From NCBI GenBank assembly GCA_032358255.1, contig JAULBX010031481.1:104561-168560 (forward strand): DNA of 64,000 bases. The letters are read 5' to 3'. Numbering within the stretch: position 1 is the first letter of the stretch; every line of letters begins with the position of its first letter. This DNA is from Heterotrichella gracilis (lineage: Eukaryota; Sar; Xanthophyceae; Tribonematales; Xanthonemataceae). Of the stretch, positions 2,544 through 63,000 are shown piece after piece. The notes under the pieces were generated by a model. The model searched no databases. It was not told the origin of the DNA and was given only the letters and a program-made list of their open reading frames with translations. A program made the translations under genes and the position numbers.

Positions 2544-5500
2544 ATGAAGTCCCAGACCATGCTTATCGTCGCTCTATTGGCCCTGGTGGGCTGCGCCTCT
2601 GCTGGTGGGTCAAACAATTAGGATTGGGTCTACTGTAACCAAGCGTTTGATGCGTTGACGCCCTTTGTGTGTGTGTGTTGTGCCTGGCTGTCATCTGTGG
2701 ACGTTCTTTACCCACCCCTCTACCACTCGACCCAGCCCATCTTTGACGCCAATTTTGCCAGTCCAGTACTGGTGATACCTAGGTCACTAGTGCTTTGTTC
2801 AATGGTCTTCCACAATGCGCACATACATACACACCAAGTGGAGCCTCCCACCCCCCCCCCACCCTCCTCCCCACCTACCCTATTAAGATGGGCAGGGCCA
2901 TGCATGCCACGTTTGGGTCCCTGCGTACCCGTTTGCAGTGCGCTTGCTGCAGGCATAAATTTCCATGCACCCTATAGGGTATATATGGCACAAAGCTTTG
3001 TGCCACAGACTTGAACCCTAACCCTAACCCTATCAACCCTACCCCTCCCATTAACATCCTAGTATCATCTCCACTGTGGGGTGGCAGAGCGTACGCTCTC
3101 TTTCTTAGACTCTTGATGAAGTTTGTGTTGTAGGTAAACCCGCTTTAGCTACGTCCTGGGCACCATGCATCAATGTGCCCATGGTGCCCATCTGCGCCAA
3201 CATGGCATGCAGCACATGTGCCTTTCTGTCTTTTCTTTCCAAACACTGCCGCATTACGCATGCGCTGCTACGCTGGTTTGTGGTGTTGGCATCACGTTTC
3301 TGTGGTTTGAGCCGGAGGACTGATATATCATTAATATATTAAAGTCCTCCTGATTTAAGGCATGAGGCATGTTCTCATGACATGGCGCATGATGGCGCAT
3401 GAGGCGACTGGGAGGGTGCATGCATCAACTTATAGGCTTCCGCTTGGTAATGCACTAGCACAATTCAGAATGTCAGCAATATTCTATAAAAGACCTGAAG
3501 CCGGCATAATGCTGAATTGTCCTGTCGCATGCCGCAGACCTGACCAGATTCTGCACTTCTTGTCTTGACCTAAATGCAAGCAGCAAGTAGGCAACTAGCA
3601 ACTAGGCTCATGCGTCTGTTTTATTTAATGGCAGGAATCGCCAACACCACACACAGTGCACCTCATCAGGCTGGAATTGCAACCAGTTTGCACAAGTACT
3701 AGCACTATTCCCTCCCCGCTCAAGGCTTAGCCCCCTATACTACCGCTTTGCACTAAAGTCAATAATATCGATGTTACACTTGTGTCCAATCAGCTCTTAT
3801 TTCTTATGGAAGGTGCCTTATGGTAGGGGAACCAGTGGACAGATGGGCAATGCCCTTCTCTTCGCTAAATCCTCTTTCTCAACAAACGCCCCTGTTCAAG
3901 GACAGGCTGCGTAGATATTTATTCATATACTTATTTATTTGTGAAAGGTGCCTACCGCTATAATAATTAATGAATTGCTACCACAAACTACCAACCTTGT
4001 CCCCTTGACCTTGCAGCCACAACCGTCCCCTTCGACTTTGGCCGCCCCTGCGCCCTCTTTGGCAGTCCCTCAGCCAGTGAGACTGTGTCAAGCAGCGGTG
4101 GGGAGTGCGCGTCATGTGGGACGGGGGCCAACGCGGTGCCATCAGGCAAGGCGTGCGTCTTCAAGGTGAGGGCAGATTGTTAATTGTAAACCCTAAACCC
4201 TTAACCTTTAACGCAGCACCGGTGGGATAGGGCTGCCTGTTCAAGGCGAGGGAACCATGTTAGCTGTAACCCTAAACCCAAAACCCTAAAGCTTTAAGGC
4301 AGCGCCCGTTGGGATAGGACTGCCTGCTCAAGGTGAGGGACCATTGGGGCATTCCATTGGGTGTTCGCTTCAATGCATTATAATGCCATGCTTCAGGTAA
4401 TCAGGGAAAATCACTCTGTTGTCACAATGACCCACACATATGACCTCTGTAACCACATGCAGGCGCCACAGAGCACTAATTTAATTAATTAACCCGCGTT
4501 GTGCGTAGTGCCACATGGTTGCAGCCTGATTCATTGACCGCACCTCAAATTTAACGCCCTGGATTGCGCACGTGTGTGAGCTATAAATGTGCTACGCGTG
4601 ATGCAGCAGTGCTTAAAAATATAATATAGAAAAATCAATTATCACTGCTGCATCACGCGTAACGCATTAATAGCTCAACACACGTGTGCAATCCAGGGCG
4701 CTGCCTGAGCACAGATATGCTTATCATATACCATGTAAGGAAAATGTCTAATTTCAGAGCCAATGAAATGGAATAGACACTTATAAAGAATGATGTTGTA
4801 TCAGATATGTGCTTGTATTATCAGCATGGCATTGTCAATCTGCCCACTCCCTTGGCTCCTGCATACCTTGCTGCAATCTACATCACATCCATCAATATTT
4901 TTGAAAAATTATGTGATCATTTCACAGCCCAGCACATGCAATATGGCTTGCGCTCACTGACTGGTTCAGGGCGCATCTCCAACCCTGCTTTTAGGGTTTA
5001 GGGTTTAAGAGATCATCAACTGGCCCAGGGCGCATTCACAACGTTGCTTCACTGGCGGTAAAAGGAAGGCGGTGGCACCTTCCAGTGCATGTAGGTCACT
5101 GTGTTCCTTGGGCACTTTAATGCGGTAAATACAGGCTGCGTAGCTATTTATTTATTTATTTATTTAACGCGGTGAAAGGAAAGGCATGTGCACCTTCCAG
5201 TGGCAATGTGTTCCATGGGCACTTGAAAGCCACGCATCCATGTGACGCACCCTTTCATATGAAATACACCGCTCCCCTGTGCATTCCAGTGTGCTGCATG
5301 GGGACTCGCACATCCAAGTCACGCACAATCCATGTGAACAACAATCCATGTGAATAACTATTCCTTTTAAGCTCTTGCCCCGTAGCCCGTCGACCTCAAG
5401 GTCGGTGACAGCATCGCCTTTGGCTACCACTCCTCCGCGCACAACCTGTACCTGGACTCCGCTGCCTGCGCATTCACAAAGGAGATCTGCCCCTTGGCCC

Positions 5501-15379: not shown

Positions 15380-17480
15380 TCAGTACAAGGAATTTGCTTG
15401 AACTCCCGGTGATGGAGAATTATTGTTCACCCCCTGGGCGACACCGACATGTACCCACCTGGCTGCGCGGCAGCACTTGGGGCGCCTGTGGGGGTGGTGG
15501 CATCGCTGGGCCTGGGATGGGGGGCCCCACCCTCGGCCACCACTTGGCGCCAGGACATAACCAGTGGTGGTGGTGGTAGTGGCGGTGCCAGCACTGGAGC
15601 TGCAGTGCACAGGGAGGGATGTCAGTGGCCAATGGTTAGGGTGTAGGCTGCTAACCTAAACCCTAAACAGGGTGACAGGTGAGGGTGTGTGTGCAGGGCA
15701 CCGGGAGGGGTGCCAGTGGGCAAGGCAGGGTTTACAACCCTCCACTCAAAAGCCTAAGCAGGACGTCAATGGCTGCAGTCAAATCTTCTGTGAGAGATTG
15801 CAAGGCTTCCATAGCCATGAACTACAGGGGATTACCCTGTAGGTGGGCAGTGTTGTATCAGGGTATGAATTCTAGGGTACAGAGAATGGGTGTAGGGTTT
15901 ATGATGCCTGTCGCACACGCACCTAGCAGGGGAGGAAAGGAGGCAGCTGCGCTTGGATAGCATGCGCGTAATCGGTAGGTTTATACCACCATCAGGCATA
16001 TGCCAAAATATCATGCAGCAAGAGATACAGGAAGGGACCAGCAGCACGTACCCTGTGGCGCTGTGGATCTGGTGGCTGCGGGGTGTTGGGTGGGTGGTGT
16101 TACCCGGGTGGTGGTGGCTGGGAGATGTTGGTTTGGAGGTGGTGGTTGGGAGGTGCTGCGAAACTCTTGGCTGGGGTTGGGGGCACAGCGCTGGCTGCGG
16201 AACCCTTGGCTGGGGTTGGAGTTGCGGTGGCCTGGGAAGGGGGAGGGGAGTGTGTGATTTGTGCTGAATCTAGGGTTTCTACACCCTGCGCCCAATCCCA
16301 ATCATGTGCAGGGTCAAGCAGGTGGCGTTGTCTCAGACCCTGTGCTCATTTCGGAAATCAGCACAGGGTTGCACACTACCGTAAATCGAGTAAATGATTA
16401 TTCAAGTAGATTTTCTTTTAATACTCATAGTTCAATGAATTAGAAAAGCATACATGAAGGTCAGATTTAAGAAATAATTTATAGAGAGCGATATTTTTTT
16501 ATTTGAAAAAATACAGGTAAAGGTGGCCTGCGCTGTGGGTCACGGCGCCTGCACTGCCACTCTCTGCAAGCCTAAGTACAAGGGGCAGTTGGCTTGGAAG
16601 CGGGGGCGGTGGTAGGTGGAGGAGTTTAGGGGCCAGCGGCAGGAGTGGTGGTGGTGGTGGTGCCTGGGGGTATCCCGCCAGAGGAGTTTAAGTTTGCCAC
16701 CACTTGGTGACTTGACCTGGCCATTTAAGGGGTGCGGCTGCAAGGTGGCACAAAGGGGGTTGAGGAGTAGTACTTTAGTTAGGTAAAGGAACTTGCCTAC
16801 ATCTTCTAAATTTATGCTTTAAAGCAAAAAGGTCTAGAGTTCTAACCAAACCAGAAGGAGGGGTGACCCGAAAGGGTGGCCAGTGCCTGTCCTGCACCTG
16901 GACAATATCATCATCAAGATGATCTTGCAGTGTGCATTTGCTGGTGCCAACCTTGCATGGCAGGTGCACTACGTATACCCAGCTGTGACCCAGTTTGGAG
17001 GTGAGAGGGACAGGGGGTACAGCGACCAAATGAGGCGGTAGGCAGACATAAACACACCTGAAGCTGTACGTTGACCCTCCATGGGCAGGTGGTGGGCGGC
17101 GAAGAGTGTGTATTCAGCTCTGTAAGGTACACCTATGAGGTTAAACGTTGCCCCGTCTCAACTCTCTCCTTGCGCTCCCTTCAACCACTAACATGAAAGA
17201 CCCACCCTTCTTTCCACCAAAGAAGCGTTCGTACCACTTCTGAAAAGCTTCTTGGCAAGCAATTTAGCTCCCGGTCGGGCCTATATAGGCGCCGTCGTCC
17301 AGCCAAAGGGACCTAGGCACCTCCTGGGGTGCAGGGCCTGCGAGGCTGGTTCCGGTGGGTTCGGAACCTCACAGCCTGAATCTGGAGAGGCCTGAGCGGT
17401 GAAAAGTGGGCCTTGCGACGGCTGATATCTTTGACGAAGGCAACAGGCCGGGTTTGAAGCTGCCTTTGTGGTCAAAAGGT
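15380..17480. repeat. Repeat family, copy 2 of 3
   Basis: This is collinear with the copies at 11041-13140 and 20000-22200. Hallmarks are GGAGCTGCAGTGCACAGGGA (15597-15616), a GGCTGGGGTTGG repeat near 16172 and 16211, the minus-strand CAACGTACAGCTTCAG|GT end near 17060, and CACCTCCTGGGGTGCAGGGC near 17320. A minus-strand open frame near 16914-17132 keeps the NVQ-type end (PWRVNVQLQ). I could not assemble a credible full gene; this may be a decaying gene family. Confidence 0.5.
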
Positions 17481-18031
17481 TTAAGGGTAACAGCTTACCC
17501 TTGCGTAGGGTTTAGGGAACCCCTCCCCGGCATGGCATCAAGCCTTGCTTCATCAAATGGCATCAAGGTATTTGCTTCTTTAGCCTTTTCCGTGTCGCCC
17601 ACAAAGTTTTGCTCCACAAACCTTGCCCAAAGTCCGAGTCACTAGTTAGAATTGATAGCTTGACCACAACACCAGTGTTCACCAATGCACTCCAATGTGG
17701 CTGCAATCCATCGCAACAGCGCTGGAAAAACATGATGGGTTAGGATTGTATTGTGGGCCCCCTGAAAAGGGTGGATGTTGTAGCCTATCTATATACTGAT
17801 TCTTTTTGGTGGAGGCTATGTGTAATTGCTATGCTGCCTTGTGCATGCCTTGAGCATGCCTTGTGCATGCCTTTGGCGTTGATTCTTTTCTTTTTGTTCT
17901 TTTTACAGTTTACGAAGAACAAATCCCATTAATTTTCTCTCTCTTACAGTGGCCGTGATGATCCCTGGAGAATCAGAACAGAGCCTTCCTTATCAACTCA
18001 TCCCAACACATGATGTCCTTGCAACCCACAG

Positions 18032-22200: not shown

Positions 22201-22442
22201 CTTCTAGCTTTTAGCCTTTTCCGTGTCGCCCCGAAAGGTCTTGCACTACAGAACTTGCGCATCCCGGCAGCCGTTTGCAGCTACAAGCCAGCTACAGCTC
22301 TAGTGTGCTGGCACTCTGATCAACTTAGTTGTAACTACTGCACTCGAAACTTGTGTCAGTCTTGTGTACGGTGAACTTCGCCAAGGCTGCCTGGTAACGT
22401 CTAACGCCTTTCTGCACGCAATGCGTTGACGCTGCACTGGGC

Positions 22443-25400
22443 ATGATGGCTGGCGTTGCGTGCTTTCCGAGGGCACTGGGTGCGCACCGTCCAAGCCTCG
22501 GCCACCGCCCTATCGGCGGTCCGGTTGTCACCAGTAAAACTAGGCGTGATGGGTTCAACGTGTCCTGTGGTGCATCTTACCGTTGGAGCAAAGGTGCGGC
22601 GAAGAACCGTGTGCATGCATATGCAAGTGGCATGCACACCATATGCATGCATTATGCATGCACACACGCTGCAAAGCCAACACTCGCCCAGCTTTAGTGA
22701 GAATGGAACCCGTGTATTTACCCATTTTTCACATGTTTTGCCACGCACATTGCCAAGCACTGTAATGTTTAGCAGCAAACCCAGAGTGCGCCAACTTTGG
22801 GACCTGGGGGCCATCCCCCATTCCTGTGTTGTCGATGCACAGTACCCTTTTTAGGTTACCTTGTTAACCCACCCCAACCACCTGCAGCCAAAAGTTGTGG
22901 CGACCCCAACAAGGTTGAACCGATCTTGGACAATGTAGACACCCGGGATCCCCGCTTCTCACCACAGTCCCCAGCAGATGCCCGCCGCAACGGGTCCCCG
23001 CCCTCCACCTCAGCACCATCCCGGGATCCCCCCCAGGACAGGCAAGAGGGAGGAAAACCCCGTGGTGGGGAAACCTGGGGAGGAAACCAAGGGGGAAACC
23101 CTGGGGAGGGGGCAGGGGCGGGGGAGGACGCCGATGGCTGGGGCAAGGTTTCGCCTCCTGAGGACTGGGGCTGGGAGAGGGGCTCTACCAGACAATCATC
23201 CAATGCCAGAGCTGGTACCTCCGCCCCCTCTGCCCCTGACAGCGATCCCAGCGCTGGGTATGATGCCCCCCCTGCCGGTCAAGGGGGTGATGGGGAGGTG
23301 TGGGAGGAGGAGGGGGGTGACAGGGGAGCGGGGGGTGCAGAGGGGAGGGGAGAGGTGGCGCTCCCAGAGATCACGCTGCTGTCTCCCGCTGAGAAGGATA
23401 AGCTGCTGCCTGTGGCGCCCTTCGCTGACCAGGTCAAGTACCTACAGGTACGCGAAGTCGGAATTGTTTTTGGTACTTCACGTCTGGTAAATATGATGTA
23501 TATAACTACGCCTCTGTGCGTTCCCTTTCTTTCTTTCTTCTATGAGGTCCGTTCCGCATTGTGTTTTGCATAGAAAGTAAAGGAGTAAATAGTAATACTA
23601 ATAAATTGATAATGAGGCGCACTTTCCATGTATGGTTCATGGGCTTGGGCGTTCATGCCAGGCCTCTTGCTCCTGGGCAGCGCATGGGCGTGCATGCCAG
23701 GCCTCCTGTTCTTGGTGGTGGGTGGGCCCATTTACACCTTGACTGGGTGGCCTGGGTTGCGCACGGCACGGCAGAGCACACAGTGCATTGCTTGGCATCC
23801 GCAGTTTAGGGTTTAGGGTTTAGGGTTTGGCATGGCACAGCGGAGCACACAGTGCATTGCGTGGCATCCGCTGCTGTTGGATCCATGCCATGTGCGCCTG
23901 AACGATTCCCATGGCATGCCCTATGCACCACCACCACCGCAAACCCTGTACCCTAGAAGTCCTACCCGCCACCCACCCTTCCGTGGCTGCAGGGCGACTT
24001 CGTGGAAACCATCCAGCGCTTCTCCGCCTTCCCCCTGGAGGCCATCCTCCTTTACCCCCCACCCACCCACCCACACATACACACAACACCCTGCAAACAC
24101 CAGCACCGCAAACTCTACCCTAAAACCCTAGAGCGCCCTAGACCCCAGACACTAGACCTTGAACCCTAAATCCAAGAAACCCTAGCAACCCTATAATGCG
24201 CCCGATATATCCCCTGCAGGGCGACTTTCTGCAGACCATCCAGCGTTTCTCCGCCTCCCTCCTGGTTACTCTACTGGCAAGCAAGGTGGTGGTGGTGGCT
24301 GCGACTGCGCTCACCTACCCCTTCTGGTGGCCGTGGGCGCAGGCGGCAACCAAGAACTCCTCGCTGCGGTCAAGGTGGGCGCAGCATAGGGTTTAGGGGA
24401 TGGGCTTTAGGACCAGTGTAGGGTTTACAAGGATTGGTCGCTGGGTGGGTGGTGGTGGTGTGTTAGGGTTCAAGGCTTGCGCTGCAACCGCCCTGACATA
24501 TCATCCCGATGAATAATAATTAAGAAATTTAAAATAACCCCCTGTGAATAAAGATACTTCTCCAGTAAATAAATACTTAAAAACATTCCCCACCCGCAGG
24601 TACCGGTACGCTGGCCTGTGGCACGCGCAGGTACTTGAGGTGGAGGTGGTGCAGCAGCAGTGGGGGGCTCTGGGGGGTGCCAAGGGGGGCAAGGGGGGGT
24701 CGCTGCTGGTGATGGGGGTGGGGGATGTGGCGGGGGCGCGCACGCAGGTGGCGGTGCCCTACAACCCCAGGTGAGCGCTGTTGGGTGGGTTGCATAATCA
24801 TGGTTTTCAAGAGGGCATGATTCATGCACAACCTGTGCTTAGTGATGCAACCGGGGCTCTAATCTGGGCAAGATGTGGGTCTGGTGGTGCTTTACTGTTG
24901 TATGATCAGCTGTTACTGATGCAAGCATTTCATTGGGGACGAAGCCAATGTCCAATGGGCTGGTTTGGGTGTTGTGCCTGCGTGCGTACTCATTGTTTTG
25001 TTGCCAAAAAAAGCGAAAATGCATCGGGCGTAACAGCAAAACCTCCCCCTCTCCTGCCCACATAAGTACGGCCGCGTCAAGGTGGGATGCAGAACCCATA
25101 TTTATATCAATTCAAAAGTAATCAAAGCCCTAAATACTCCTGCTGGTGCTAGGGAGTGTAGGCCAGTACCTGGGTAGCCGTGCGGCCATGGCACCAATAC
25201 CCACCTCTAGCACAGACCCCGGTGGCAGTGTAGCATGTCCAAGACCCTAACGCACAAGTCCCCGAGCCTTGCCTGAAACCGTAACGGTATACTGTAGTCC
25301 CAAACTCCATCTGCTATTTTCCGATTGTTTCCCTCCCCTGCCTGCCCAGGTACAGCCGCATTGAGGTAGGGGAGCCTGCTGAGCTGCTGGTGCTGTCCAA

Positions 25401-26093
25401 TGATGAGCAGTTCACGCAGTTCAAGGTGAGCGGGTGCAGTGGCTGGACCCTAAACCCTTATGGCCTAGTCCAAACCCTGAATACCGGAAAGTCCACGCAG
25501 TTTATGGTGGGCGGGTGCATTGGCATAAATAAAAAACATACTTCTGAGTATGCATTGGTCAATGCATGGTTACCGTATTAGACAACAGCGCGTGGCTGGC
25601 GGTTGACATGGTCTTGCTCATTAATTCCGGGCATGCCAGTGGACCCACTAACAAGCATAACAACCGGCTAAAACCTCATCTAGAAAGGTTGCAGTGGGCT
25701 GGGCACGCCTGTACCTACGCTGCATGACCTCGTAGCGATGCTGCAGGATCTCAATATGTCATGCCAATCCATAACATGCACATGGGACATTCATTTCGCA
25801 GGATGGAGTTGCAACTCCAACCCCAACCTGGAAAACATACCTCTAACCCTCAAACCCTACATCCGCACCATGACATACCATGCAATCCTGCCCCATTCGT
25901 CGCATGCAACTCTTACCCAGGGTTCATTTTTCAACCAACCCTTGAAACCCTTGCGCAGGGTTTGAAGGAGGTGTACCTACCCGAGAGCGGCCTGTGGGTT
26001 GCTGACTACCCCTACGTGGACCGCCGCCAGTTTGTGGATATCAGCATTGCGGTGGAGAGGGAGAGGCGGGCACAGGAGGCGGCGCAGTACTGA
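22443..26093 (+). CDS. Conserved-looking protein of unknown function, probable plastid targeting
   Basis: Six exons join in phase: 22443-22593, 22888-23447, 24220-24374, 24600-24770, 25350-25425 and 25959-26093, 415 residues. Exon 1 (MMAGVACFPRALGAHRPSLG) is Arg/Ser/Gly-rich with no acidic residues at the start, like a plastid transit peptide. Exon 2 is a Gly/Pro/Glu-rich low-complexity linker. Exon 3 begins GDFLQTIQRFSA and contains a hydrophobic stretch (LLVTLLASKVVVVAATALTY), a likely membrane segment. Exons 4-6 are compact and well conserved in style: YAGLWHAQVLEVEVVQQQ, VAVPYNPRYSRIEVGEPAEL, GLWVADYPYVDRRQFVDIS. The ending ERERRAQEAAQY precedes TGA. I do not recognise the family. A duplicated start of exon 3 lies at 23993 in intron 2. 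Confidence 0.7.
23993..24053 (+). repeat. Decoy copy of the start of exon 3
   Basis: CTGCAG|GGCGACTTCGTGG at 23987-24005 duplicates the acceptor and start of the exon at 24220 (CTGCAG|GGCGACTTTCTGC), giving GDFVETIQRFSAFPLEAILL before the similarity stops. No good donor follows. Between the copies are several CCCTAAA-like heptamers (24118-24175). Confidence 0.7.
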
Positions 26094-37425: not shown

Positions 37426-40400
37426 ATGGCGAGTCTGATCGGCTACTTCACACACAAGGGCATGGCATGCGTGCGGCACACCCGGCAAGCGCTCCACAGC
37501 GCTAGGCATCCAGGGGGTGCTGCTGCCACCCATACCCTGAACCCTCCCCAGAGGGGAATACACTTCAGTGAGGCGCACAGGCAGGCCCGGAGGTCCACGA
37601 GGCCACCGCCCAGGGCTACCAAGACAGACGAGCTTGAAGGTAGGGCCAAGGGTGGAGGCTGAGGGTGAGCATCCAAGCACCCACTTGGTGGGGAAGTAAC
37701 CCAGGCCTGTGTCTATCCAGCTCATCGATGTTTGCCTGCGTAGCGGTGCTAAAATATTGCTAGAGACGAGGAGTGGCCCGTTACTGCATTGGTTGTTGGG
37801 GCGAGTTGCATTGGTTGTTGGCGCAACAAACAGCGCTTGGGGTGGGGAGGCCTGAGGAAACGGCCACCGGTCACCACCACATTGATGGAGCCAATACGCA
37901 ATCAACCAAGTTTTTATCACCCCTTGTCCCTGCAGAGGTTCAGGAGCTGCCTGAGCAGGTGACCAGCTGGACGGAGCCCCTGCACCTCAAGGTGCACGAC
38001 ACCTTCCTCACCAACGCGGCAGAGCTACGGGAGCACTTTACTCACAGGCGAGTGGCACAGCGCCTTTCCTGAACCCTACACCCTTAAACATTGCCCTTAA
38101 AGAGGTTCAGGGTGGCATAGTAGCTTCTCATCTGCGCTCCCTAAACCCTAAACCGTTTACCCTAAACCCTAAAGAATTGCTGCTATGGCTGTCACTGGCG
38201 GGTAAAAGCGCACGACACCTTTCTCGCCAACGCGGCGGAGCTACGGGAGCCACTTTACCCACAGGCAAGTGGCTCGATCACTACCATCCCCATCCCCAGC
38301 CTAGCCAGACACACTTTTCTACACCCGCGCGCAACCATCCAGCTCTTGACCAGTTCTCCTGGCACGCCCACACCCATCTTGGAATTTTTCAAAACCCTAA
38401 AACCCTAAACCCTACCCATCATCGCCACCAGGTTCAGCACGCCTCGGGAGACGCGCTCCGACCGCTTTGTGTGGGACTACTGGTGCCAGCACATCCCCGG
38501 CCAGTACACGCTGATGGACACCTTAACCCCGATCACAAGCAGCCCATGTGCACACGCTAACCACACCTCGCCACCACCACCACATACCCTCATAAATCCA
38601 AATAACCGCTCCCTAAACCTTCATCACCACCCCTACTGCAATCCCAGGTTCAGCACGCCGCGGGAGACGCGCGCCGACCGCTTTGTGTGGGACTACTGGC
38701 ACATCCCCGGCCAGTACACGCTGCTGCGCACCCCTGCCGACCAGTTCTTCCCTCCCAAGCTGTACCAGGAGCTTGAGGATCAGCTGATCGAGTATGGCGA
38801 GCGTAGCCTTGGGTGCCGCGCGCTCACGCCCATCTGGCTGTCATACTATGTGGATGGGTGCCACCAGGTGAGGAAATGCATCTGCATCAGAGATTGGAGG
38901 AGGGAAAGGGCAGTCTGGTTGATAATATTGCGATATTTTTGAGGCGCTGCATGCATGCCATGAGAATTGAGCAGGCGATTGAGGGCCGGTGGTGGGGAAT
39001 GGCGAGCGCAGGCTGGGGTGCCACGCGCTCACACGCATCTGGCTGTCATACTATGTGGATGGATGCCACAAGGTGGGGAGACGATTGTCATCAGGGTTTA
39101 GGACGAGGGATCGGGGCGGTCCTGTTGACAATCATGTTGTTTTTCAAGGAGGGAAGCGCGATTGTCGGCTTTTGAAGCCCTTATTGCAATGCATGTGACT
39201 GTGTACCCCACATATGCTAACTGCTAATGTGGCTGTGTTACAACCCATTTGCCCGCTGAAACCCTACATGCATACATGTGAACTTGAATTCCACCGTGTC
39301 TCATGTGCGATACGTGTACCCTCATATACGGCCCCTCAATACCCTTGTTTAGGGTCTGCACGCCGACAACCCCCACGGCCCCTGGGCATTCGTCCTCTCC
39401 CTCACCGACTGGGAGCAGCGGTCCTTCAGTGGAGGGGAGACCATGATCCTACAGCCTCAGGTGCTGGATTACTGGAGGACGTTCGACGCAGCTAAAGGGA
39501 CCGAAACCCCTGATTTGGTAAGGGTTTCCTGGTTGGTTGCTTACAGGTATTCCACCCACAGTAGCAAGATATCAGCATGGCGACCAGTACAACAGCATCA
39601 ATGCATCCATCCCCCCTGGGCCTGATGGAGGGCAAAACCTTTGAGCTCTTTAGTTAAAAGGAAAAAAAGAATATAATATCACCTTTGCAACCAGTACTGT
39701 AGCATCACCCCTCCCTTGGCCCTGCTCCCCCCACAGGTTCAACTGGTGGAGGCCCGCTTCAACCGCCTGACGGTGTTTGACCCTCGCTTCCCCCACGGGG
39801 TGCGGGCGGTGGAGGGCACTCGAGACCCGCTCAAGGCACGCATCGTGCTGCACGGCTGGTTCACAGACCCCTCGCCCTTCTTCGTGGGAGGGCTATCTGA
39901 GGAGGAGGCCACACCTGCACTGAACGACGTGCTGGATGACCTGTACCAGGTGCCAACTATTGGACTCCCGTACCCTAAAAACCAAACCCTAAACCCTAAA
40001 CCTAAGCGCTGAATGCTGGTTGACATGTACCAGGTGCCAGCTGCTGTGCAGCCTAAACGCTACTGCGAATCCATTACAATGTTACTTGGCTGCACTGATG
40101 CAATTAGCTGCGGTGTGCAAAACCATGCACATGCTTCCTGCATATCTGCAGGAGCTTTGGCAACCTGCCGCGTAGCATAGTGACTGCCAAGGTTTGCATT
40201 TAGGGTTTGCAACCTGTTAGAAATCCTAACTGTGGTTCCTACACCTGCAGGAGCTCGGCCAGCTGCCACGTGGCACCGGCACAGTCACCGTGCGCCTGAC
40301 CATCTCGGGGTCCACAGGGGGTGTGAGCAAGCTGGACTGGCTCACAGACACCCTCATCCCCGTGCCTGGCGAGATCGACCCCACCGATGCCCGGGATGCC

Positions 40401-42252: not shown

Positions 42253-42270
42253 CGCTCACAGCGATCGGGT

Positions 42271-44737: not shown

Positions 44738-47700
44738 ATGGCGATGCCACCAGGGCCGATGGGACCCCAACCCGTCATGCTGGACACAGTCATCGTGTGG
44801 TTTCGGAGAGACCTCCGGGTAGCCGACAACCCCGCGCTGACAGCAGCCCTGCACTGCGCCAAGACCGTGGTGAGTTGGCAGAGATTTATTGGCGCCCATA
44901 TCAAGGGCCCATTTAGAATATCTGAGCGTATCGGGGCCGAAAATTCGCAATATAGGACGCGTGCTCGCTTTGGGGTGGCAGCTCTTGCCAGCAATGGCAA
45001 GATGCAGTCCTGTTCGTGGCTGGTGGCACGCAGTTTGGTGACCTGTGTATGATGAACCAGTGTCCCATAACACCTCTGCCTTGGCCCCACCTATGATTCA
45101 CGCCTGGGCGTCCCTGGGTGCAGATCCCTGTCTACATATGGGCACCGGAGGAAGAGGGCCAGTTTCAGCCAGGCAGATGCTCCAGGTGGTGGCTCAAGTG
45201 CAGCTTGCAGGCCCTGGAACGTGATTTAAAGGTCCTGGGTAGCAAGCTGTTGTACTTTGCAGCCAACGAGACCAGGCAGGCCCTGCTGCGCCTGGTGGCA
45301 GAAACGCAAGCCAGCGCAGTGTGCTTTAACCACCTGTACGACCCCATCTCCATGGTGCGGGACAACGAGGTGAAGCTGGCCCTTACCAGCGTGGGGGTGC
45401 AGTGCAGAAGCTTCAACTCTGACCTGCTGTACGAGCCCTGGGAGGTGATGGGCAGCAACGGCAAGGCGCTCACGTGCTTTGAGGACTTTTGGGCAAGGTG
45501 AGGGCCAGATACATATGGCACAGTATGTCACCGACCGGAATGGCGGTTACTTCCCATTATCCAGGCAATAAACTGTGTGCAAGGGGGTCACCGCGCCTGG
45601 TTGCAACTCAAGCAGCGGAACAACAGTCTCTTGATCCTTGCATGGGATTGGCTCTTGCTGGGTCACCCACGGTGTCACTCCCCATAGCCATCTCTCTCTC
45701 TTGTGCACTAGTATTAGGCTGAACTTCAGCCACATAATTTGCGCTCTAGTTGACAGCCACGGCAGTGCCAAGGGTTACAAAACCACAGTTTTCAGCGCAG
45801 CGCAAGCAGCTGAGCAGATCCCCCGCGTCTCGCCTCGCAGGGTGGTGGCGCTGCCAGGCTCACCCGCTGTCCCCCTCCCCATTCCGGCGGCCATCTCCCC
45901 TCCCCCTGCCCACCTTGTCGCCCTTGAGCTGAAGGACATTGGCATCATGACAGCGGAGGAGGAGCTGTCCAACCAGCAGCTGGAGCACTCGGTACGCAGG
46001 CTGTTGTCAAACCCTAAACCCTAAAGAAGAAGCAGTTGGGAGCACTCGATAAGCAGGCTGTTGTCGACCCTAAACCCTAGACAACCAGCAGGTGGACCGC
46101 TTGGTACGCACTCTTGTTAACCCTGGCCCTGCACCTGAAGCAGCTGGAGCACTCTGTATGCACCTCTGTCAACCCTGAACCCAAAATATTTAGCAGTTGG
46201 GAGCACTCGGTACACAGGCTGTTGCCCTAGTGCCTGCCGCGCCCATTGCTACCTCCTCTCCTTGTACCTGGTGTTGGTCGCGTTTCAAACGTGGTCCACA
46301 TCACTGTTGGGGCGCACATTTGGTTGGGCCAAGCAAAGCAAGTCATAGGGGGATCCTCACTATCGACATACAGTCCAGAACTAAGGTAAGAAGGACCGCA
46401 AGTGTCTTCTATCAGTTTTCTGGTAGTCAGGTATGCCTTACGAAAGGCTGGTCAAGGACCTACTGCTTTTTGTAAAGCATACAAGGCTACCTTGAAACTG
46501 ATCAAGGACACTTGCAGTTGCTTTACACATAGTTTTGGACCGTGTTCGATAGTGGAAACTCACCTGACTTCCGAACTGTCCCCTCGAGTTGTGTGCCTCC
46601 TGCGCTTCCTGGCGCCTGCCCAGGTTCTGCGACTGTTGCACGCTTTGCCCACTGCTACCTCCTCTGGCGCTGATTCTAATTGTTTTCTTTTTTTTTTGCA
46701 GTGGAGCCCAGGGAGCGCCGGGGCGCACAAGCTGCTGATGAGCTTTGTGATGAAGGGCCTGCACAGCTTTGACCAGGACCGCGCCAAGACTGACCGCGAG
46801 AGCACCTCCAAGCTGTCGCCGCACATACACTATGGGGAGGTCAGCGTGCGACACATATACTACGTGGTGAGTGGGGCGAATTACAGCTATCACCTGGATG
46901 TGAATATCGTCTTTTATGTATTATTACTTGCACGTGGAAGTGATGCTGTGGTTAGAGGGGTTGAATAAGGGTTGGCAGGGTTTGCAAGCTGCAAGGGCGG
47001 ACGCTTTTGATGGGGGCTACGCTGCACAGGCCACCAGCGTCATGCCATGCCCCTGTGCCCTACAAATTACACACTGTCATCACTGCTCCACCTGGCTAGC
47101 TCCAGCTGTATGGAGCTAGCCTCCATAGCCACACCTGCATAGCCCAGCCACTGCTCGTCCACACAGCTGCTTAGCAATGAGCGCAAGCCAGGGTCGCGCA
47201 CCAACAGTATGAGTAGTTTTAGTACTATAAATGGCTGTATAGTTTTATTCTGATATGGTTTTGTGCTGGAATGAACATAATAAAATAACAATAATATAAT
47301 GTGCTCCTTCCGCTCACGCTGCTGTGCCCCCCGCCAGGTGAAGCAAAAGGAGTGGGAGTGGCAGCAGCAGGGCCGCCCCTCCGCCTCAGCCGCCGGCTTC
47401 CTGAAGCAGCTGGGGTACCGCGAGTACTCCCGCTACCTCAGCTTCCACTTCCCATTCACACACGAGCGATCGCTGCTGGAGCACCTGCGCGCATGCCCCT
47501 TCAAGTTCGACATGGGACTCTTCAAGGTGCGCCCTGCTGGTTGTAAAGCAGTAGTAATTCTGTGTGCATTAATCGCGCTTGTGCGAGCCCTTTTGTTTGC
47601 CGGCCAGTGTTTGAACTGGCAACCCTGAATCGTAGACCCTCTAGGGTTTTTAGACTTTAATTCCTAGCTCCTCAACCCTCCCCGCCCACCCTCCAGGCCT

Positions 47701-50020
47701 GCCGCCAGGGCCACACCGGCTACTGTTGTTTTCCGCGACTTTAGTTCTCGCCCCTGATTCAAGCTCCTAAACCCTTCCTTCCACCCGCAGGCCTGGCGCC
47801 AGGGCCGCACGGGGTACCCGCTGGTCGACGCCGGCATGCGCCAGCTGTGGAGCACCGGGTGGATGCACAACCGGCTGCGCGTGGTGTGCGCCTCCTTCCT
47901 GGTCAAGAACCTGCTGCTGCCCTGGCAGTGGGGGCTGAAGCACTACTGGGACGCGCTGCTGGATGCTGACCTGGAGTGCGACGCGCTGGGCTGGCAGTAT
48001 GTGGCGGGCTGCCTGGCAGGTGGGTATGGGGTCTGGGATTGCTGTTTAGGGTTTGGATATGGGGGTTGGGATTGGAAATGGGGTGGGAATGGGGGTGGAA
48101 TGGGATTAGCATGTGTGTGGTGTGCGCCCCTTTTTTCCTGGTCGAATTGCTGCTGCTGCTGTTCTGGTGGTGAGGGCTGAAGCATCTGTGGATGCTGGCC
48201 TGGAGTGCGGCGCGGAGGGCTGGCAACAGCGGGGGAGGGGGTATACGAGTGGGTGGGAATTGGTAGGCATGCGGTGATCAGCACATCCTTCCCATATAAG
48301 AACCTGCTGCTGCACTGCAGTGGGTGCAGCCCCCATTCACCATGTTCTCCCAACCGCTCACCCTCCCCACCTGCCTGCAGATGCGCACCCCTTCAGCTAC
48401 ATGCTTGACCCCGTTGACAAGGAGGCCAAGGTGTTTGACCCCGACGGCAACTTTGTGCGCCGCTGGCTGCCCACGCTGTCCCGCGTGCCCACAAAGTACA
48501 TCCACGCGCCATGGAACGCGCCGGAGCACGTGCTGGACGACGCAGGTGAGAATATGAGACTATAAGAAAATTATCGGTGTGGAGACGCCTCTTTTGTGGA
48601 ATTCAGGACAACATAACCCCGATGCAGTGTTGTATTGGATTTTTTTACCATTTTTGGGTGAGCACATGGGTGCCGAGGTAAATTTCGGGGCCTATGTTGC
48701 GTTTTGCCTGCTAGTGGAATGGTGTGCTTGGTTGTTGTGGGGTCCATACTGGATGCTAGATCATGCTGCATGCGTGTCCTGCTAGGTGTAACAACCCAGC
48801 ATCTCACCCATTGGGCGCAACTGATCTACCTACGCCAAACTGATGTAACTAACCACATATTTTACACATTTCTCCTGCAGGCGTTGTGCTGGGCGACACC
48901 TACCCGCTGCCCATCATATCGCCAGACGAGTCGCGCAACCAGGTGCAGTTTGCCTGCTCGGTCATCGAGCAGTCGCTGTCATCCAAGGCGGCAGACAGGC
49001 TGCCATTCAGGCCCGCATCCAAGGCGGGAGCCAGCTCTGTATGGACCCCCGGGAGCAGCAACCAGATGTACGTCCTGTGGTGCTTGGTGGGATGGGGTGG
49101 CTTGGTGTGGTGTGGGTGATGGTTGCAATGGGCGCAAGGTGTCATCCTAGTTGCGGCTGTGCTTTAATAATTGCCGCTGGGGTAGTTTAAGATGCATGTG
49201 GCGCGCAGCAGCAATATGATGCAGCTGCGCCTGCTGGGTCTTTGCTTCTGATTGACGATGTTTGCGCCATCAACTACAGCGCCTCCCAGGCGTGGCCTGC
49301 CCTGACCCCCCCGTCCAATTTTTTTGCAGGGACGGCCCGCAGCTCCGCCCCTGGACCAACGGCGACGCCTACACCGGGCACCGACTCCAGGAGGTCATCT
49401 GTGGCACCGCTGCGGCAGCGGCCGCCGCCGCCGGGCACGCCGCGGAGGACGGCGCCTCTGGCAACGACAGCGACGAGGAGGTGGTGAGCAACACAGTGGG
49501 CAACAGCATGTGGCCCGAGGACCGCAAGGCGCGCGTGCTGGATTCGAAGCGGCATGCGCGGCCGCCGCCCAGCAACCCTGCTGGTATGTGGGCGTTTGGC
49601 GCATCGCTAGTGACTCGTGGTTGTTGGGTACCAAAGTAGAATCTAAACAGTGGGATGTAATTTGCAATTCAGAAAGTTGCATTTGAAATTCAAACATTAA
49701 CAGTGGCAGGGTGCTCGTGGTTTCATATCTGTAGTGCTTGGCGAGTGCCAACTGTTTCTTGAACTGCAAAACTTTGAAGACCCTGCCTACAGTGCTTGTG
49801 GTTACAAAATCCTGAAAGGCCATTTTAACGTGGATGTGAATGGTTGGGCCTGTCCATTTGTGCAGGTGCGCAGTCCTGCGCCACATTTGCAGTGCCCCGG
49901 TTCTCTTCGGACCGCATGCAGACCTCCAGTCAGGAAGAGGGCAATCAGATGCTGGTACCGGATTGCAATGCGGAGCATTCGACGTGTGAGCCAAACCTGA
50001 AGCGGCCGCGTATGGACTAG
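44738..50020 (+). CDS. CRY: Plant-type cryptochrome blue-light receptor
   Basis: Ten exons join in phase: 44738-44869, 45124-45497, 45841-45991, 46702-46866, 47338-47526, 47791-48019, 48381-48545, 48881-49067, 49330-49583 and 49866-50020, 666 residues. The photolyase-homology region starts TVIVWFRRDLRVADNPAL; NHLYDPISMVRDNEVK and FNSDLLYEPWEV are diagnostic of plant cryptochromes rather than photolyases. The FAD-binding part shows DAGMRQLWSTGWMHNRLRVV, LPWQWGLKHYWDALLDADLE and DALGWQYVAG, including the Asp next to the flavin. After the core, a tail of about 135 residues is Ala-rich, has an acidic patch (NDSDEEVV) and ends KRPRMD, a likely nuclear signal. The tail is far shorter than in Chlamydomonas CPH1 (family knowledge). 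Introns 3, 5 and 6 contain repeated copies of exon edges. Confidence 0.93.
45970..46225 (+). repeat. Array of cryptochrome exon 3 end copies
   Basis: The true exon end and donor, CAGCTGGAGCACTCG|GTACGC (45976-45996), recurs in degenerate form near 46030, 46092, 46140 and 46195 (GGGAGCACTCGATAAGCAGG, GGAGCACTCTGTATGCA, GGGAGCACTCGGTACACAGG). CCCTAAA heptamers separate the first units. Confidence 0.85.
47690..48330 (+). repeat. Copies of parts of cryptochrome exon 6 in both flanking introns
   Basis: Bases 47694-47722 repeat the start of exon 6 (CAGGCCTGCCGCCAGGGCCA). Bases 48117-48225 repeat its middle (GTGTGCGCCCCTTTTTTCCT, then GGATGCTGGCCTGGAGTGCG). A third piece at 48275-48330 repeats CTTCCCATATAAGAACCTGC-type sequence. 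Frames are broken. Confidence 0.8.
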
Positions 50021-51379: not shown

Positions 51380-51720
51380 ATTCAATGACACAGGATCCCC
51401 ATTAGGCGCTGCCGCAGCAGCAGCAGCGGATACCCCATGCATGTGGTTCAACAGCAGCTGCTTGATCAGGTTTCCCTGGGCACAGGGTCCCTACCAGGCG
51501 CTGCAGCAGCAGCAGCGGGCGCCCCATGCGCCAGCTTGTCGTTGAACAGCAGCTGCTTCATCAGGTCTCCATTGGCGTAGGGTCCCCATTAGGCCCAGCA
51601 GCGTGGCCCCAGCGTGATCAGGTTTCCATGGGCACTGGGTCCCCATTAGGCCCAGCAGCAGCAGGTCCCGGCGCCCTCTGCGCCAGCTTGTGGTTGAACA
51701 GCAGCTCCTTGATGACCTGG
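51380..51720 (-). repeat. Tandem copies of the CSN5 C-terminal coding end
   Basis: The last 100 bases of the CSN5 gene and stop (51600-51720) are repeated in degenerate form just downstream: units near 51480-51600 and 51395-51480 share CAGCAGCTGCTTxATCAGG, GGGTCCCCATTAGGC or GATCCCCATTAGGC and CAGCAGCAGCAG. Confidence 0.8.
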
Positions 51721-55541: not shown

Positions 55542-56971
55542 TGGGGACAGTGGGGCGAGGGGGGCCTCACACCAGTAGCAACCTCCGTATCGTGCGAAGC
55601 TGCCAACAGCGAGAAGCTGAAACACAGGAACCAACCATTCTAACCCTTGCCAGATCAAGTGTACGAGCTCAATAAAATATGCTGGTCAGACACCCCCATG
55701 ACTCAGCGCAAGGCGGTGTGTTGGGCACTGAGCCGCAGCCCCACGGAGTGGGGTGCTCAAAAGTACAAAGCGGCAGGGGGCCTGGAGGAGTCAAAACGGC
55801 GAGCTTGGTACGAACACGGTGACCCTGCTCTAACGCAGCATCAACCTGAGCAGGCCCGACGGGGCAAGGCACAAAATGCGCAGCCTTTCCCAGGTCTGAC
55901 CGAAGTTGCCAGCGGTGCTTGGAGGGTATGGAGTTCAAGAGGCGACAAGGACTGGCTCAGAGTGGACCAAGGCTCGGCAAGGAGGCAGGATCGGGGCATG
56001 GACCGCATCAGGATGAACTGACATCGTTTACAGCTTGCAAACGAGCCTTTTCAAAGTGGAAAAAAGCTGTTCTGGCGGTTTTGCCGGCTGTGGGCGCTCA
56101 TCATATGATCAGTGCCACGGGCTGGAAATGTGGCAGAAAATGTCGGACTTGGCCAACTGGCAGGTGCACCCAGGCCACAAATGAAAGCCCCCACTTCAAA
56201 ATATGACGAGAAACAAGAGTAGGGCCTGGCCACAACCTGAATTTTGTCCGCAGGTTTGCAGGTTGGTTGCAAACCCATGTCCAGTGTTGCAAACATTCCG
56301 TTACAAAACACATGCGGTAATGGGAAAATTCACCAGTGTGCATTCAGTGGGCCAGGTTCAGCATGAAATTAGCAGTATCAAATACAGAATGGTGTGTTAC
56401 CCAAAGTGGTGCTTGGCAACTCAACGCAAGTGGCGTGTGGTTGCCAGGTGTAAAGCGCCGCAGCGCAGTCCTTCTCGTGAACGGTTTCATCGACTGACTG
56501 ATGCTACAACGTCATGGTCGGGTGCCCTCGTATTAGCCTATTTGCTTGCGCTTTGCACTCCCTGATATGTGCTACTATTTCTTCTCTTCCGCACCATGGT
56601 GTTGGGCACCAATGGTCCCGGGCCAACATCTACAGCTGTGCTACCAACTGAGCACCCCGCTCAACACTCCAGTGCCGAGTTTGCAGTAAAATGGTACGCC
56701 ATGGTGGCAATTGGCAGCTGCTGGAGGGTGACAGCTGCAGCAGCTCCAGTGTGAACGTGCCACTGACCCGGGAGGTAGCTTAAGGGCCACCGCCTTGTCA
56801 AGCAAACATTGTTGCTGCGCCGTAGTGCCTGGCACTACCAACCTTGGCACTTATGAGCATCTCTGCAGACCTGCGCAGCCCATCCCCGCCCAGCTGCTGT
56901 AGAGTGACAGCTGCCGCCAGTTCAAGGATAATGCGCCACTGGGCGTGGACATGGCCTGATTCTCCCCATTG
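55542..56971. other. Spacer with decayed terminal-exon copy
   Basis: Mostly non-coding. Bases 56798-56905 are a degenerate copy of the last exon of the next gene (minus reading QLGGDGLRRSAEMLISAKVG, then RHYGA and a stop), matching 56972-57096. Confidence 0.6.
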
Positions 56972-58126
56972 TCAAGCAAACACCGCTGGTGCGCCGTAGT
57001 GCCGGGCACCTCCAACCTTGGCGCTTGTCAGCATTTCAGCAGACCTGCGCAGCCGGTCCCCGCCCAGCTGCTCTTGCCGGAACGCCACAGCGGCACCTGC
57101 AGCACCAGCCACCACACCAAGGTTAGCAGTGAGTAAGGAACACCACCACCCCCTGACGCACACAATTCATACGCACACCCTCGGCGGTTGTGGGCCGTCA
57201 CCAGTGACATGCTTGGCTAGCAGAAAGGGCGGGGCATATCAATACACTGCTGCATTGGTCTGTGCACTACAGATGGAAAGTGCGCGCATGAGCACCCTGC
57301 CAGGCTACACATTGGTGGCCAGAAAGTGAACGTGTGTGTCCCACCTGAGGGTTTGTGGAGCATCTCTGGTGGCTGCAGCACCTGCACCGTGACAGGCCCT
57401 ACTTTGCGTGCAAGCTTGTCCTTCTTGCGTCTGGGTTTGGCAGCGGCTGCCGCCACCAGCGCCTGCTCCCTCGCCTGCTCCGTCTGCACCTGACTGCTCC
57501 TGCGCCACACCAACCAGAAGTGCAAAAAGTGAAGTGAAGTGAATTTCAGTCTGGTCTTTTTTGATGCAACTGGTTGAACAGCCATGTGGAGAGAACCCAG
57601 TATGCGGTTGCAGTGCATTCAATGTGCAGGCGAAGTAGTAAGGACTTGCAAGGCGACGAGCAAGGGGGTGTGTTGGCTGGACGGCATGCCAGGGCAGGAG
57701 TGGCCCATGTGGCAAGAGTTCCTATGGGGCATGTGTGGTGCATTGGCATGATACGATAGCATTACCACCCTGTGTGCTGCAAGGTCCTTACCTCTGGCGC
57801 TGGGATACCATAGCCACCACTGACTCTGGCAGCAAGTCCAAGTCCATGTCTTCATCCCTTGCCAAGGGTTGTTCGTTGCCGGCTGCCTCCTCCTCCTCCT
57901 CGTCTTCCTGGACGTCTGCAACAACCTGTTGTTTGCTTTTCTTGCTCTGCCCCTTTTGCTTCCGTTGCTTTGCCGCTGCTTGCGCGGCTTGGGCTGCGGT
58001 CCGTTCTGTTGCTCTCCGGTCGGCAGCGGCCGCCTTGCTCACCGCAGCTGGGACCTCCTCTGGAGCCTCGTCATCGTCACCGTCCGATGGCTCTTCGGTG
58101 TCTTTCCGCTTGCTCCTGGTCCTCAT
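56972..58126 (-). CDS. Small basic/acidic, probably nuclear protein of unknown function
   Basis: Three minus-strand exons join in phase: 58126-57792, 57499-57345 and 57096-56972, 204 residues. The N-terminus is MRTRSKRKDTEEPSDGDDDE, then an Ala-rich helix, a Lys-rich nuclear-signal-like patch (KQRKQKGQSKKSKQQ), an acidic run (EDEEEEEAAGNE), a second basic patch (KPRRKKDKLARKVGPVTVQV) and the conserved-looking end FRQEQLGGDRLRRSAEML, ARHYGAPAVFA. The layout recalls small nucleolar ribosome-biogenesis factors, but I do not recognise a family. A degenerate copy of the last exon lies downstream. The start codon faces the HMA gene across a spacer with CATGCATG clusters. Confidence 0.65.
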
Positions 58127-60023: not shown

Positions 60024-63000
60024 GGCTGCGGGTGCAGGGCTGTGCCGTATGTTGAGCAGCAGTGGGAGTGGGAGGGGTTCAAGGTGAACTACTGCGAGGG
60101 GAAGGCTGGCGTGGGCCCGCCGGTGGTACTGGTGCACGGATTTGGTGGAAATGTGGGCCACTACAGGTATGCGCGTGGATCGGCAAGAAATAATAATGGC
60201 TAAAATTTCCGGGTTTAGGGCAAAAGTGGTAGTGCTTGAAGTGGGCCTGACAGCGGTACTGGTGGGAGGCTTTGGTGGGCCTGTGGGCCAACACAGATGT
60301 GTACAATGCAAGAACGTGAATGCGAATGGATGTCCAAAGTTCTGGGAGAATCTCGTAAATGTTTATGAAGTCAACCAAATGCAACGGCCCCTCCGTACTG
60401 TTTATACTTTGTACAACATGTGCCCCCGGTACGGTAATGAGCATACTGGACTGTGCTGCAGGAAGCTTGCTACTGAACTGTGTGGGCAGTAACATGTGTA
60501 CTGGGTGGGACATGGGTGTAATGCAATGCATGCAATGCATTGCAATGCAACGCAATGCAACTCAACGTAACATACGTCCTGCATATCCCTGCAGGAAGCT
60601 AGCTGCTGAGCTGTGCGAGCAGTACCACGTGTATGGGGTGGACCTGCTGGGATTTGGCGCCTCGGAAAAGCCCACGCACGTGGCCTACGACCCGCACCTG
60701 TGGCAGCGCCAGGTGTCGGCATTTCTCAGGGAGGTGGTCAAGGAGCCTGCTGTGCTGGTGGGCAACTCAATTGGGTCACAGGTGAATAATCACCCAATCA
60801 TTATCATCATCGTCGATACGGTGGCATCATCATCGATCCGGTGCATCATCATCAGTACGGTGGCATCATCATCAGTACAGTAATGCCATGAACCAAAATC
60901 ACCCTTTTGGTTCCAGGTTGCATGCCACAAGATTTGTTACGGGGTAAGCTAGCAGCAGAAATCTTGCAGCTGTTGACCAGTTGTGTCATTTACCCACGTG
61001 CAGGTGTGCCTATACGTGGCATCCGAGACACCTGAGCTGGTGAAAGGGGTGTGCGTGCTCAACTGCAGCGGGGCCATGAACCAAAAGGGGCTGTATGGCG
61101 ATGAGCCGGTGCTGCAGCTGCTGCGCCCTGTGTTCTGGCTGCTGGAGCTGGCGCTCAAGCAGCGGCCGCTAGCCAGGTAAGGCACAGAAATCACTGGTTG
61201 AAACTATAACATAATGAATGATGGTAGGAACGTTTCTCATTCAATTTCTGGCTAGTCGAGCTGGCGCTGAAGCAGCGGCCGCTAGCCAGGTAACGCACTA
61301 GCAACATGGTACAATGAAAGAAGGAAACGAAATAAAAATAGAACTGATAAGGTTCGACATTTGGAATTTATGCTTACCAGGTTGTTACCGTATCCACTTG
61401 AGTCGCGAGTTTCTAATCATTCTGATGGCTTTCTTTGTGCTGCCTGCTCTTCGTTATCAAACATGCATGTGCATGGGCAGGCTGCACAATTGTAGCAGTT
61501 CTTTTTCATGTACCAAGCCCCTGGGATGTGCCAATGTGGCCATTTCATTTACTGAGCCGCTGGGATTGGTGGACCTGCAGCTGGCTTTTTGAGAAGTTCC
61601 GGGACCGCAAGCGCGTGGCTAACCTGCTAGTGACAGCGGCCAGGGCGGGTGTGCCGCCGGTGTACGGCAATGCAGAGGCTGTGCATGACGAGCTGATAGA
61701 CATCCTGTATGCGCCCTCGGAGGACCCGGGCGCGTTGGATGTGTTTGTCAGGTGGGTGGGGCCATATGACATGAGCACATGCAGCCCAGCAACTGACACA
61801 CCTTGTTCTGGAACACCATGAGCTGCATATGATTTAGTTAGTCACGTGAACTCCACCAATATAGCTATGATCAGCAGGTAGGATTGTACATCATGATCTA
61901 TAGCTACTACATCACGATCATAGATATGCCATAGATATCTACCGGTATGATCATAGATCATGATGTAGCTATGATCAGCAGGTAGGTTTGTACATGCAGC
62001 GCCAAGCAGTTCAATCCTGGCACTCCTGATACCATTTGTTGACCTTGCGCGATTTGAAAGCCCTGCTGGGTGAGGTCAGCCCATGGTGTGTTGGAAGCGT
62101 GTTGACCGTAGCTGTCTCTACTTGGACCATGCATGTGCGTGAACTGTCTGGGATATGAATGAAGCGCAATCCGCGCCGCGGTGCCTTCCTTTTCATTGTA
62201 ATGTTAGCCATTCTTCATTTTTATGTATTTATCTTGGCAGTGTCTTCACTGGCGACCCTGGGCCCCGGCCCCAGAAGCTGATGGCCGTTGTTTATTTCAT
62301 TTTTCAATCTTAGTCTAATGCATTTTCTTTTCTTTTCCCAGTGTCTTCACGGGGGACCCTGGGCCTCGGCTCCAGAAGCTGATGGCCGTTGTTTATTTCA
62401 TTTTTCAATCTTAGTCTAATGCATTTTCTTTTCTTTTCCCAGTGTCTTCACGGGGGACCCTGGGCCTCGGCTCCAGAAGCTGATGGCCGTTGTTTATTTC
62501 ATTTTTCAATCTTAGTCTGATGCATTTTCTTTTCTTTTCCCAGTGTCTTCACGGGGGACCCTGGGCCTCGGCTTTAGAAGCTGATGGCCATTGTTTATTT
62601 CATTTTTCCATCTTAGTCTAATGCATTTTCTTTTCTTTTCCCAGTGTCTTCACGGGGGACCCTGGGCCCCGGCCCCAGCAGCTGATGGAGCGCATTGAGT
62701 GCCCTGTGCTGGCAGCCTGGGGCGAGGCCGACCCCTGGACGCCCCTCACAGGCAGCCTGGGCAAGCACTTTGTGAAGCTGTCACAGGAAAAGCCCCACCA
62801 GGTGAGCGTGCGGTGATGCCTCTTACCTAGTAGGAAGTTAGTATCTGCCTTCCAGATTTGCAACATAGTAGCAAGTAGGGGCCGGGTCAAACCCGAAGTT
62901 GATAAAAAACCTAGCACACACCTCAATGGGTTCACTGCCCAGCATTCTGCTACCCCTGTTCTGTAACGGGTTGTCATTGGAGGCTCTTGTGTGGTGTACA

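Follow-up and report, generated by a model that had tools for sequence, protein, structure and literature searches.

Coding-sequence edges copied into introns and flanks, with telomere-type repeats between copies, in a 64 kb window of the Heterotrichella gracilis genome

Results

Genes and gene models of the window

The window analyzed here is one whole stretch of 64 kb from Heterotrichella gracilis (contig JAULBX010031481.1, positions 104,561 to 168,560), and all results refer to it. Our subject is a set of nearby direct duplications in which the edge of a coding sequence is found again in the neighbouring intron or flank, often with telomere-type CCCTAAA or TTTAGGG repeats between the copies. 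The window is eukaryotic DNA with multi-exon genes, which were modelled by self-training region by region, and the proteins were labelled using Pfam and comparison with PDB sequences. Pfam domains were found for CBM20 with MYND, RRM, 2OG-Fe(II) oxygenase, photolyase/cryptochrome, JAB with CSN5_C, and alpha/beta hydrolase, while a U3-snoRNA-associated match was weak and below cut-off. The submitted fragments of a “cupredoxin” and a “plastid gene” gave no Pfam match, and these two labels are those of an earlier note made from the sequence alone. Among solved structures, the cryptochrome model is matched best by chains of cryptochromes 1 and 2 from plants, such as 1u3c. Taken by themselves, these matches and the TTTAGGG repeats would suggest a plant-like, probably green algal, source.

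Nine genes were used as a set, comprising 40 introns, 80 splice borders, 7.3 kb of exon and 16.6 kb of intron, with an exon GC content of 0.633 vs 0.518. Doubtful exons were left out of this set in the CBM20 gene (30536-30567 and 27668-27688), the oxygenase (37728-37745 and 40530-40558), the nucleolin-like gene (34453-34470 and 32263-32312), the cryptochrome (49866-50020) and the hydrolase (59603-59682), and two exon ends were shifted by hand (38051 to 38047, and 35247 to 35288). Three modelled exons, 38451-38482, 32365-32563 and 48218-48319, were judged by hand to be duplicates of real exons and discarded; once exon 48218-48319 is omitted, the cryptochrome protein has an ungapped junction when compared with known cryptochromes. 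A multi-exon model at 7349-10844, an intronless kinase model and a weak two-exon model at 19323-20153 also stand outside the nine-gene set.

Nearby direct duplications and their anatomy

Nearby direct duplications are real in this DNA: a chunked blastn self-comparison of the window gave 50 direct-repeat pairs spaced at most 800 bases apart, and the same search on block-wise dinucleotide shuffles gave 0 pairs in each of three. Identity within the listed pairs runs from 71% to 97%, which indicates duplications of differing age and agrees with the earlier description of copies as near-identical to very decayed. The copies had also been described as tandem. This holds for a few plain arrays (at 28858 and 62238), but in 18 of 21 aligned pairs the two copied stretches, here called X, are separated by a spacer of 8-175 bases, so that most copies are not strictly tandem and the usual anatomy is X-filler-X.

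The edge of a coding sequence was copied in ten genes, namely the cupredoxin-like gene, the plastid-type gene, the CBM20 gene, the nucleolin-like gene, a lysine-rich gene at 35-37 kb, the oxygenase, the cryptochrome, CSN5, the gene at 56972 (hereafter the 56972 gene) and the hydrolase; the cupredoxin-like edge was read by eye, as the gene model did not extend there. The claim in the earlier note that exon edges with their splice sites are copied in at least ten genes thus stands in number, except that in our models the copied edge of CSN5 and of the 56972 gene is the stop-codon end and not a splice site. At donor edges the first copy is the real exon end, and at acceptor edges the last copy is the real exon start. 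The splice dinucleotide is kept in 10 of 11 inner copies (hand-picked, one copy per duplication). Introns bearing a copy have a median length of 533 (n = 13) compared with 289 for the others (n = 27, p 0.0016), and this extra length could be cause or effect alike. The habit is absent from some genes, such as the multi-exon model 7349-10844, which has zero duplication clusters; two pairs of low score (8193 and 9638) lie within it or close by.

Duplications along the window

The following intervals are on the plus strand unless the minus strand is given. In the cupredoxin-like gene, an exon end with its donor and a telomeric tract is repeated at a spacing of 80 (4154..4344). An intron-only duplication at 23754..23871 has (TTTAGGG)n directly between its copies, and the plastid-type gene has both an acceptor edge copy followed by a 175-base filler and the real exon edge (exon start 24220, 23987..24265), and a donor edge with its copy (exon end 25425, 25409..25524). 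In the CBM20 gene, which lies on the minus strand, an intron-only duplication bears CCCTAAA (27291..27412), and the donor edge of exon 28990-29139 is part of a 61-base array with CCCTAAA (28858..29016, minus strand). The nucleolin-like gene contains a 199-base tandem duplication of an exon end plus intron (94% identity by TRF, 32386..32775, minus strand), and the lysine-rich gene a donor edge with its copy (exon 35288-35409, end set by hand, 35139..35350, minus strand).

Four edges are copied in the oxygenase: a donor edge after 38047 (GC-type and set by hand) with a 153-base filler containing CCCTAAA and then the copy (37994..38273), an acceptor edge copy with a 121-base filler before the real edge at 38648 (38428..38732), the donor edge 38867 plus 59 intron bases with an older copy of 78% identity (38766..39132), and the donor edge 39949 with a CCCTAAA-containing filler and a copy (39930..40042). 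The intron after 38047 has the apparent GC donor CACAG|GCGAGT (38042-38056), and its copy has GCAAGT. At the oxygenase exon beginning at 39353, the modelled acceptor (39348-39354) reads TTTAG|GG, a telomere-type heptamer that supplies the splice site.

In the cryptochrome, the donor edge 45991 is present in several copies with CCCTAAA (45970..46224), the acceptor edge at exon start 47791 has a copy (47666..47817), and part of exon 47791-48019 is copied into the following intron at 71% identity (47881..48225). The stop-codon ends of the last exon of CSN5 (51618-51808) and of the last modelled exon of the 56972 gene are copied downstream (51389..51713 and 56715..57072, both on the minus strand). 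The hydrolase carries five duplications: the exon end 60166 with an old copy of 77% identity and no aligned intron part (60111..60296), an acceptor edge copy with the real edge at 60595 (60456..60641), the donor edge 61176 with a 60-base filler and a 91% identical copy (61133..61298), an intron-only duplication of 94% identity (61859..61995), and a 101-base array of 4.5 copies (95%) whose last copy enters the exon at 62645 (62238..62688).

Paralogous sites with one copy and no filler

Within the first 23 kb, tandem paralogous sequences are present at 267-1756 and 4916-6878 and a family of three copies at 11347-12090, 15426-17629 and 20019-22261; the members of each differ by several insertions. 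Three clean sites were found where one paralogue has a single X and the other has X-filler-X, with telomeric filler in two of them. At the first, an intronic X (4961-4990) is followed by a 29-base filler with TTTAGGG repeats and by a second X (5020-5049), whereas the paralogue has a single X near 312 (4961..5049, plus strand). At the second, the two intronic copies enclose a 45-base, non-telomeric, ATTT-rich filler, and a single X lies near 345-410 in the paralogue (5055..5230, plus strand). At the third, a 59-base filler with a telomeric tract separates the copies (15601..15723, plus strand); the same event is seen at 20196/20287, and the single copy lies at 11519.

After the filler and one copy were removed in silico, these loci matched their paralogues at 119/139 (4961), 100/125 (5055) and 123/145 (15601) bases, and a fourth empty site, 5858/5899, gave a weaker match of 45/59. 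Staggered-break duplication is expected to give a duplicated flank in one sequence and an empty site with one copy and no filler in the other, and this was seen at three sites. At two of them the filled locus alone has telomeric repeats, as expected of telomeric insertion. The single-copy paralogue may represent the older state, but a deletion between the copies could also restore a single X.

Telomeric tracts in and outside introns

The window contains 58 CCCTAAA/TTTAGGG heptamers (36 + 22), compared with 8, 4 and 5 in shuffles. They had been said to sit often between copies, and this was confirmed with 9-base telomeric tracts, of which 11 of the 28 intronic ones lie between copies in a zone that makes up 8.9% of the intron sequence (rotation p 0.0014). 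A tract is held by 13 of the 21 duplications (rotation p 0.003). CCCTAAA is on the coding strand in 15 of the 28 tracts, and since the tracts are present on both strands they are unlikely to serve in RNA and fit an origin at the DNA level.

Six stretches taken as intergenic (11.3 kb in total) contain a single 9-base tract and lack heptamers, whereas the 16.6 kb of intron have 28 tracts, a comparison that rests on our own gene models, by which “intergenic” DNA may include untranslated or unmodelled parts. A further 16 heptamers lie in the poorly modelled first 23 kb, outside this comparison. No duplication cluster lies wholly within the six intergenic stretches, which is uninformative with only 3 intron-only events in 16.6 kb.

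Excess of duplications at coding edges

Within the nine genes 21 duplications were classified, 16 as edge-crossing, 3 as intron-only and 2 as lying within an exon. They comprise 20 clusters in or touching the nine gene spans, plus the event at 47666, which is among the blastn pairs and absent from the cluster list; the list has 24 clusters in total, four of them outside the nine genes (4154, 5055, 15601 and 20741). The 2 exon-only events stand outside the ratio used below, so that 16/19 (84%) cross an edge. Random placement without exon-only events gives 0.30. Because pairs lying wholly in introns become unrecognizable sooner than those with one side in constrained exon, placement was followed by decay and by detection with the same search in two simulations of 6000 events each. 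When exons decayed at 0.4 times the neutral rate, the crossing share among detected events was 0.37. It was 0.40 when exons were kept unchanged and indels made more frequent; both the value of 0.4 for exons and the indel rates are rough choices.

The observed share exceeds what placement and decay predict (p 3e-5 and 9e-5), in a test that was devised after the pattern had been noticed. Among pairs of at least 85% identity, 9/11 cross an edge against 0.33 (p 0.001), and when the two stop-codon events are removed, 14/17 do (p 1.6e-4 and 4e-4). The p value for 16/19 remains below 0.05 for any true expectation up to 0.60. Adding 4154 (edge) and 5055 (intron-only) gives 17/21, and adding six low-scoring pairs gives 17 edge and 7 intron-only events with one more exon-only (p 0.0007-0.002).

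Distance of endpoints from splice sites

The earlier note had tied the duplications to exon borders, with endpoints closer to splice sites than chance would allow. The tie stands as far as edge-crossing is concerned; closeness of endpoints to splice sites does not go beyond the level given by decay. On the intron side of the splice-edge events, 6 of 14 end within 9 bases of the edge, a count that was 7 before the intron part of 62238 was corrected by hand from 3 to 57. The two simulations place 23% and 38% of endpoints within this distance, so that 6/14 gives p 0.08 and 0.44. When endpoints are counted in alternative ways, p is 0.017-0.038 under the milder simulation and 0.22-0.32 under the harsher. 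Stop-codon edges are copied in 2 of 9 cases and splice edges in 14 of 80 (Fisher p 0.66), and with such similar frequencies there is no need to invoke a mechanism that recognizes splice sites.

Other features of the window

The kinase gene at 54285-55541 (Pfam Pkinase), which is presumably WNK-like, is an intronless model amid intron-rich neighbours and has no duplication cluster. A perfect 46-base palindrome lies at 36116-36161, an imperfect inverted repeat of about 146 bases at 4555-4700, and a 37-base exact inverted match connects 23503-23539 with 63933-63969, 40 kb apart. No relatives were found in scans of a viral contig collection.

Discussion

The phenomenon described here is real, dense and partly explained. 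From the duplications, their fillers, the telomeric association and the paralogous sites that lack filler and second copy, all directly visible in the DNA, we infer that the probable cause is the repair of staggered breaks whose ends were filled in and joined, in some cases following the addition of telomeric repeats, with selection purging the exons. Two nicks on opposite strands inside a gene, tens to about 200 bases apart, would leave overhanging ends, and filling in the overhangs would place the stretch X on both ends. Joining of the filled ends would then give X-X or X-filler-X, and where telomeric repeats had been added to an end before joining, presumably by telomerase, CCCTAAA/TTTAGGG would be found in the filler. 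Events within coding sequence would be lost to selection, while those crossing an edge could persist, since the gene could go on using the outermost copy for the correct exon and its splice site (or stop codon), and the inner copy, stranded in intron or flank, would decay as a decoy. Because the surviving edge-crossers would use the outer copy, the result would look like exon edges placed in introns. If selection and not splicing sets the survivors, stop-codon and splice edges should be copied equally often, as was seen.

The copy-filler-copy anatomy of 18/21 aligned pairs supports repair of staggered breaks, and several results weigh against it. Edge-crossers make up 84% where random breaks with decay predict 37-40%; random breaks in genes are therefore insufficient, and an exon bias has to be added without direct evidence. 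The mechanism leaves unexplained why edge-crossers outnumber intron-only events, and the simplest supplement to it, though unproven, is a preference for DNA that is exonic or transcribed. The scarcity of intergenic tracts is not predicted by a random-break model, and 4 of the 18 fillers, at 100-175 bases, are longer than simple end joining would lead one to expect. Only 4 of the 12 listed paralogue insertions of at least 20 bases hold a significant flank copy and 8 do not, in a list from which gaps with poor flanks were filtered and left uncounted. Since added repeats should lie with TTTAGGG towards the first copy and CCCTAAA towards the second, the order was checked, and 6/10 followed it, which lends no support.

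These points raise the possibility, to which we give a lesser though still substantial weight, that duplication is directed to exons or by transcription, with breaks or template switches favouring transcribed or GC-rich exon DNA and mostly edge-crossers surviving. Such a process may use the same staggered-break chemistry, so that it overlaps with the preferred explanation. It would account for the crossing excess (16/19 vs 0.37-0.40 simulated), for its persistence among the pairs of at least 85% identity (9/11 vs 0.33) and for the 28 tracts of introns against 1 in “intergenic” DNA, and exons are indeed the richer in GC. Yet the gene ends and intergenic stretches depend on our own models, the duplications are too few for an intron/intergenic comparison (16.6 kb of intron with 3 intron-only events, 11.3 kb of intergenic DNA with none), only 64 kb was covered by a test made with the pattern already seen, and only orthologues could show duplication inside exons. 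The earlier note had favoured a mechanism linked to splice sites, which might take the form of copying guided by splicing factors or pre-mRNA. Three donor-type pairs ending 9 bases past the splice point (one donor set by hand) and three acceptor-type pairs starting 4-6 bases ahead of it speak for such a link. We regard it as improbable, as the six near endpoints are no more than decay could give, stop-codon edges are copied too, and three catalogued events together with the paralogue events at 4961 and 5055 are intron-only.

Assemblies are known to go wrong at local repeats, but an artefact is scarcely credible here, as the copies differ by about 3-29%, most carry unrelated filler, and two paralogues share one event at different positions. 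Intron sequence flanked on both sides by copies also recalls the birth of introns by tandem duplication of AG|GT exon sequence, in which the intron comes to lie between the copies, a known mechanism (PMC4974935). That origin is very unlikely for the present copies: a whole intron between two exon-restoring copies was not found, the inner copies lying within longer introns and not at the far splice site, and the cryptochrome protein is ungapped at junctions with copied edges. As for introner-type mobile introns, the whole-window self-comparison (E 1e-4), which was not a dedicated test, showed no match between the fillers of different genes.

Repair of staggered breaks with telomeric filler has parallels in several systems. 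In Daphnia, internal direct repeats were reported in 55/90 new introns and ascribed to staggered breaks, against 100/617 established introns (PMC4202315). The likeness extends to intron growth and to repetition of the adjacent exon's terminal bases, which in Daphnia sit at the far end of new introns. However, the repeats shared with exons are 4-12 bp there and belong to newly gained introns, whereas the copies in the window are about 20-200 bases long, lie in apparently established introns and have telomeric filler; because only 100/617 established introns bear repeats, the parallel is best for new introns, which also counts against our explanation. In mammals, telomeric repeats are inserted at breaks, sometimes with target duplication or random sequence, as demonstrated by filled and empty loci (PMC2246262, PMC7215372). 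Telomeric insertion in break repair and direct target duplication at staggered breaks would be common to both, although duplication is a minority outcome in mammals (6/130 rodent and 4/25 primate loci), while our tracts were examined because they are near duplications and are mostly intronic.

Fill-in by CST-Pol alpha, CST being the telomere fill-in complex, followed by end joining of 3' overhangs produces small tandem duplications (PMC8355091). These resemble ours in being local duplications from filled 3' overhangs; that system concerns induced nicks in mouse and human cells, and the accessible portion of the paper does not mention telomeric filler. Direct repeats at intron/exon borders have also been read as insertion scars, as they may be here (PMC11782384), with a mean of 11.4 bp and bordering whole introns, while in the window one edge is copied into one intron. 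Among the listed titles and abstract openings of an open-access library, none described the copying of exon edges into introns together with telomeric filler, and the genome papers on Coccomyxa and Asterochloris are silent on this pattern in the passages covered. The suggestion that the mechanism was undescribed therefore has to be narrowed: the ingredients are published (PMC4202315, PMC7215372) and known, and what is new, within the literature covered, is their combination, telomeric filler at gene-internal duplications together with an excess at coding edges.

It may be, though we hold this to be doubtful, that gene-directed breaks and the telomere machinery continually copy coding edges outwards, so growing introns with decoy sites and tracts while sparing intergenic DNA. 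If the pattern is true genome-wide, break repair, telomere repeat addition and intron growth, which are usually studied apart, would become linked, and the genome would hold an age-orderable record of repair events inside genes, as well as natural decoy splice sites for studying spliceosome choice. The excess at exon edges would then be a footprint of break positions relative to transcription.

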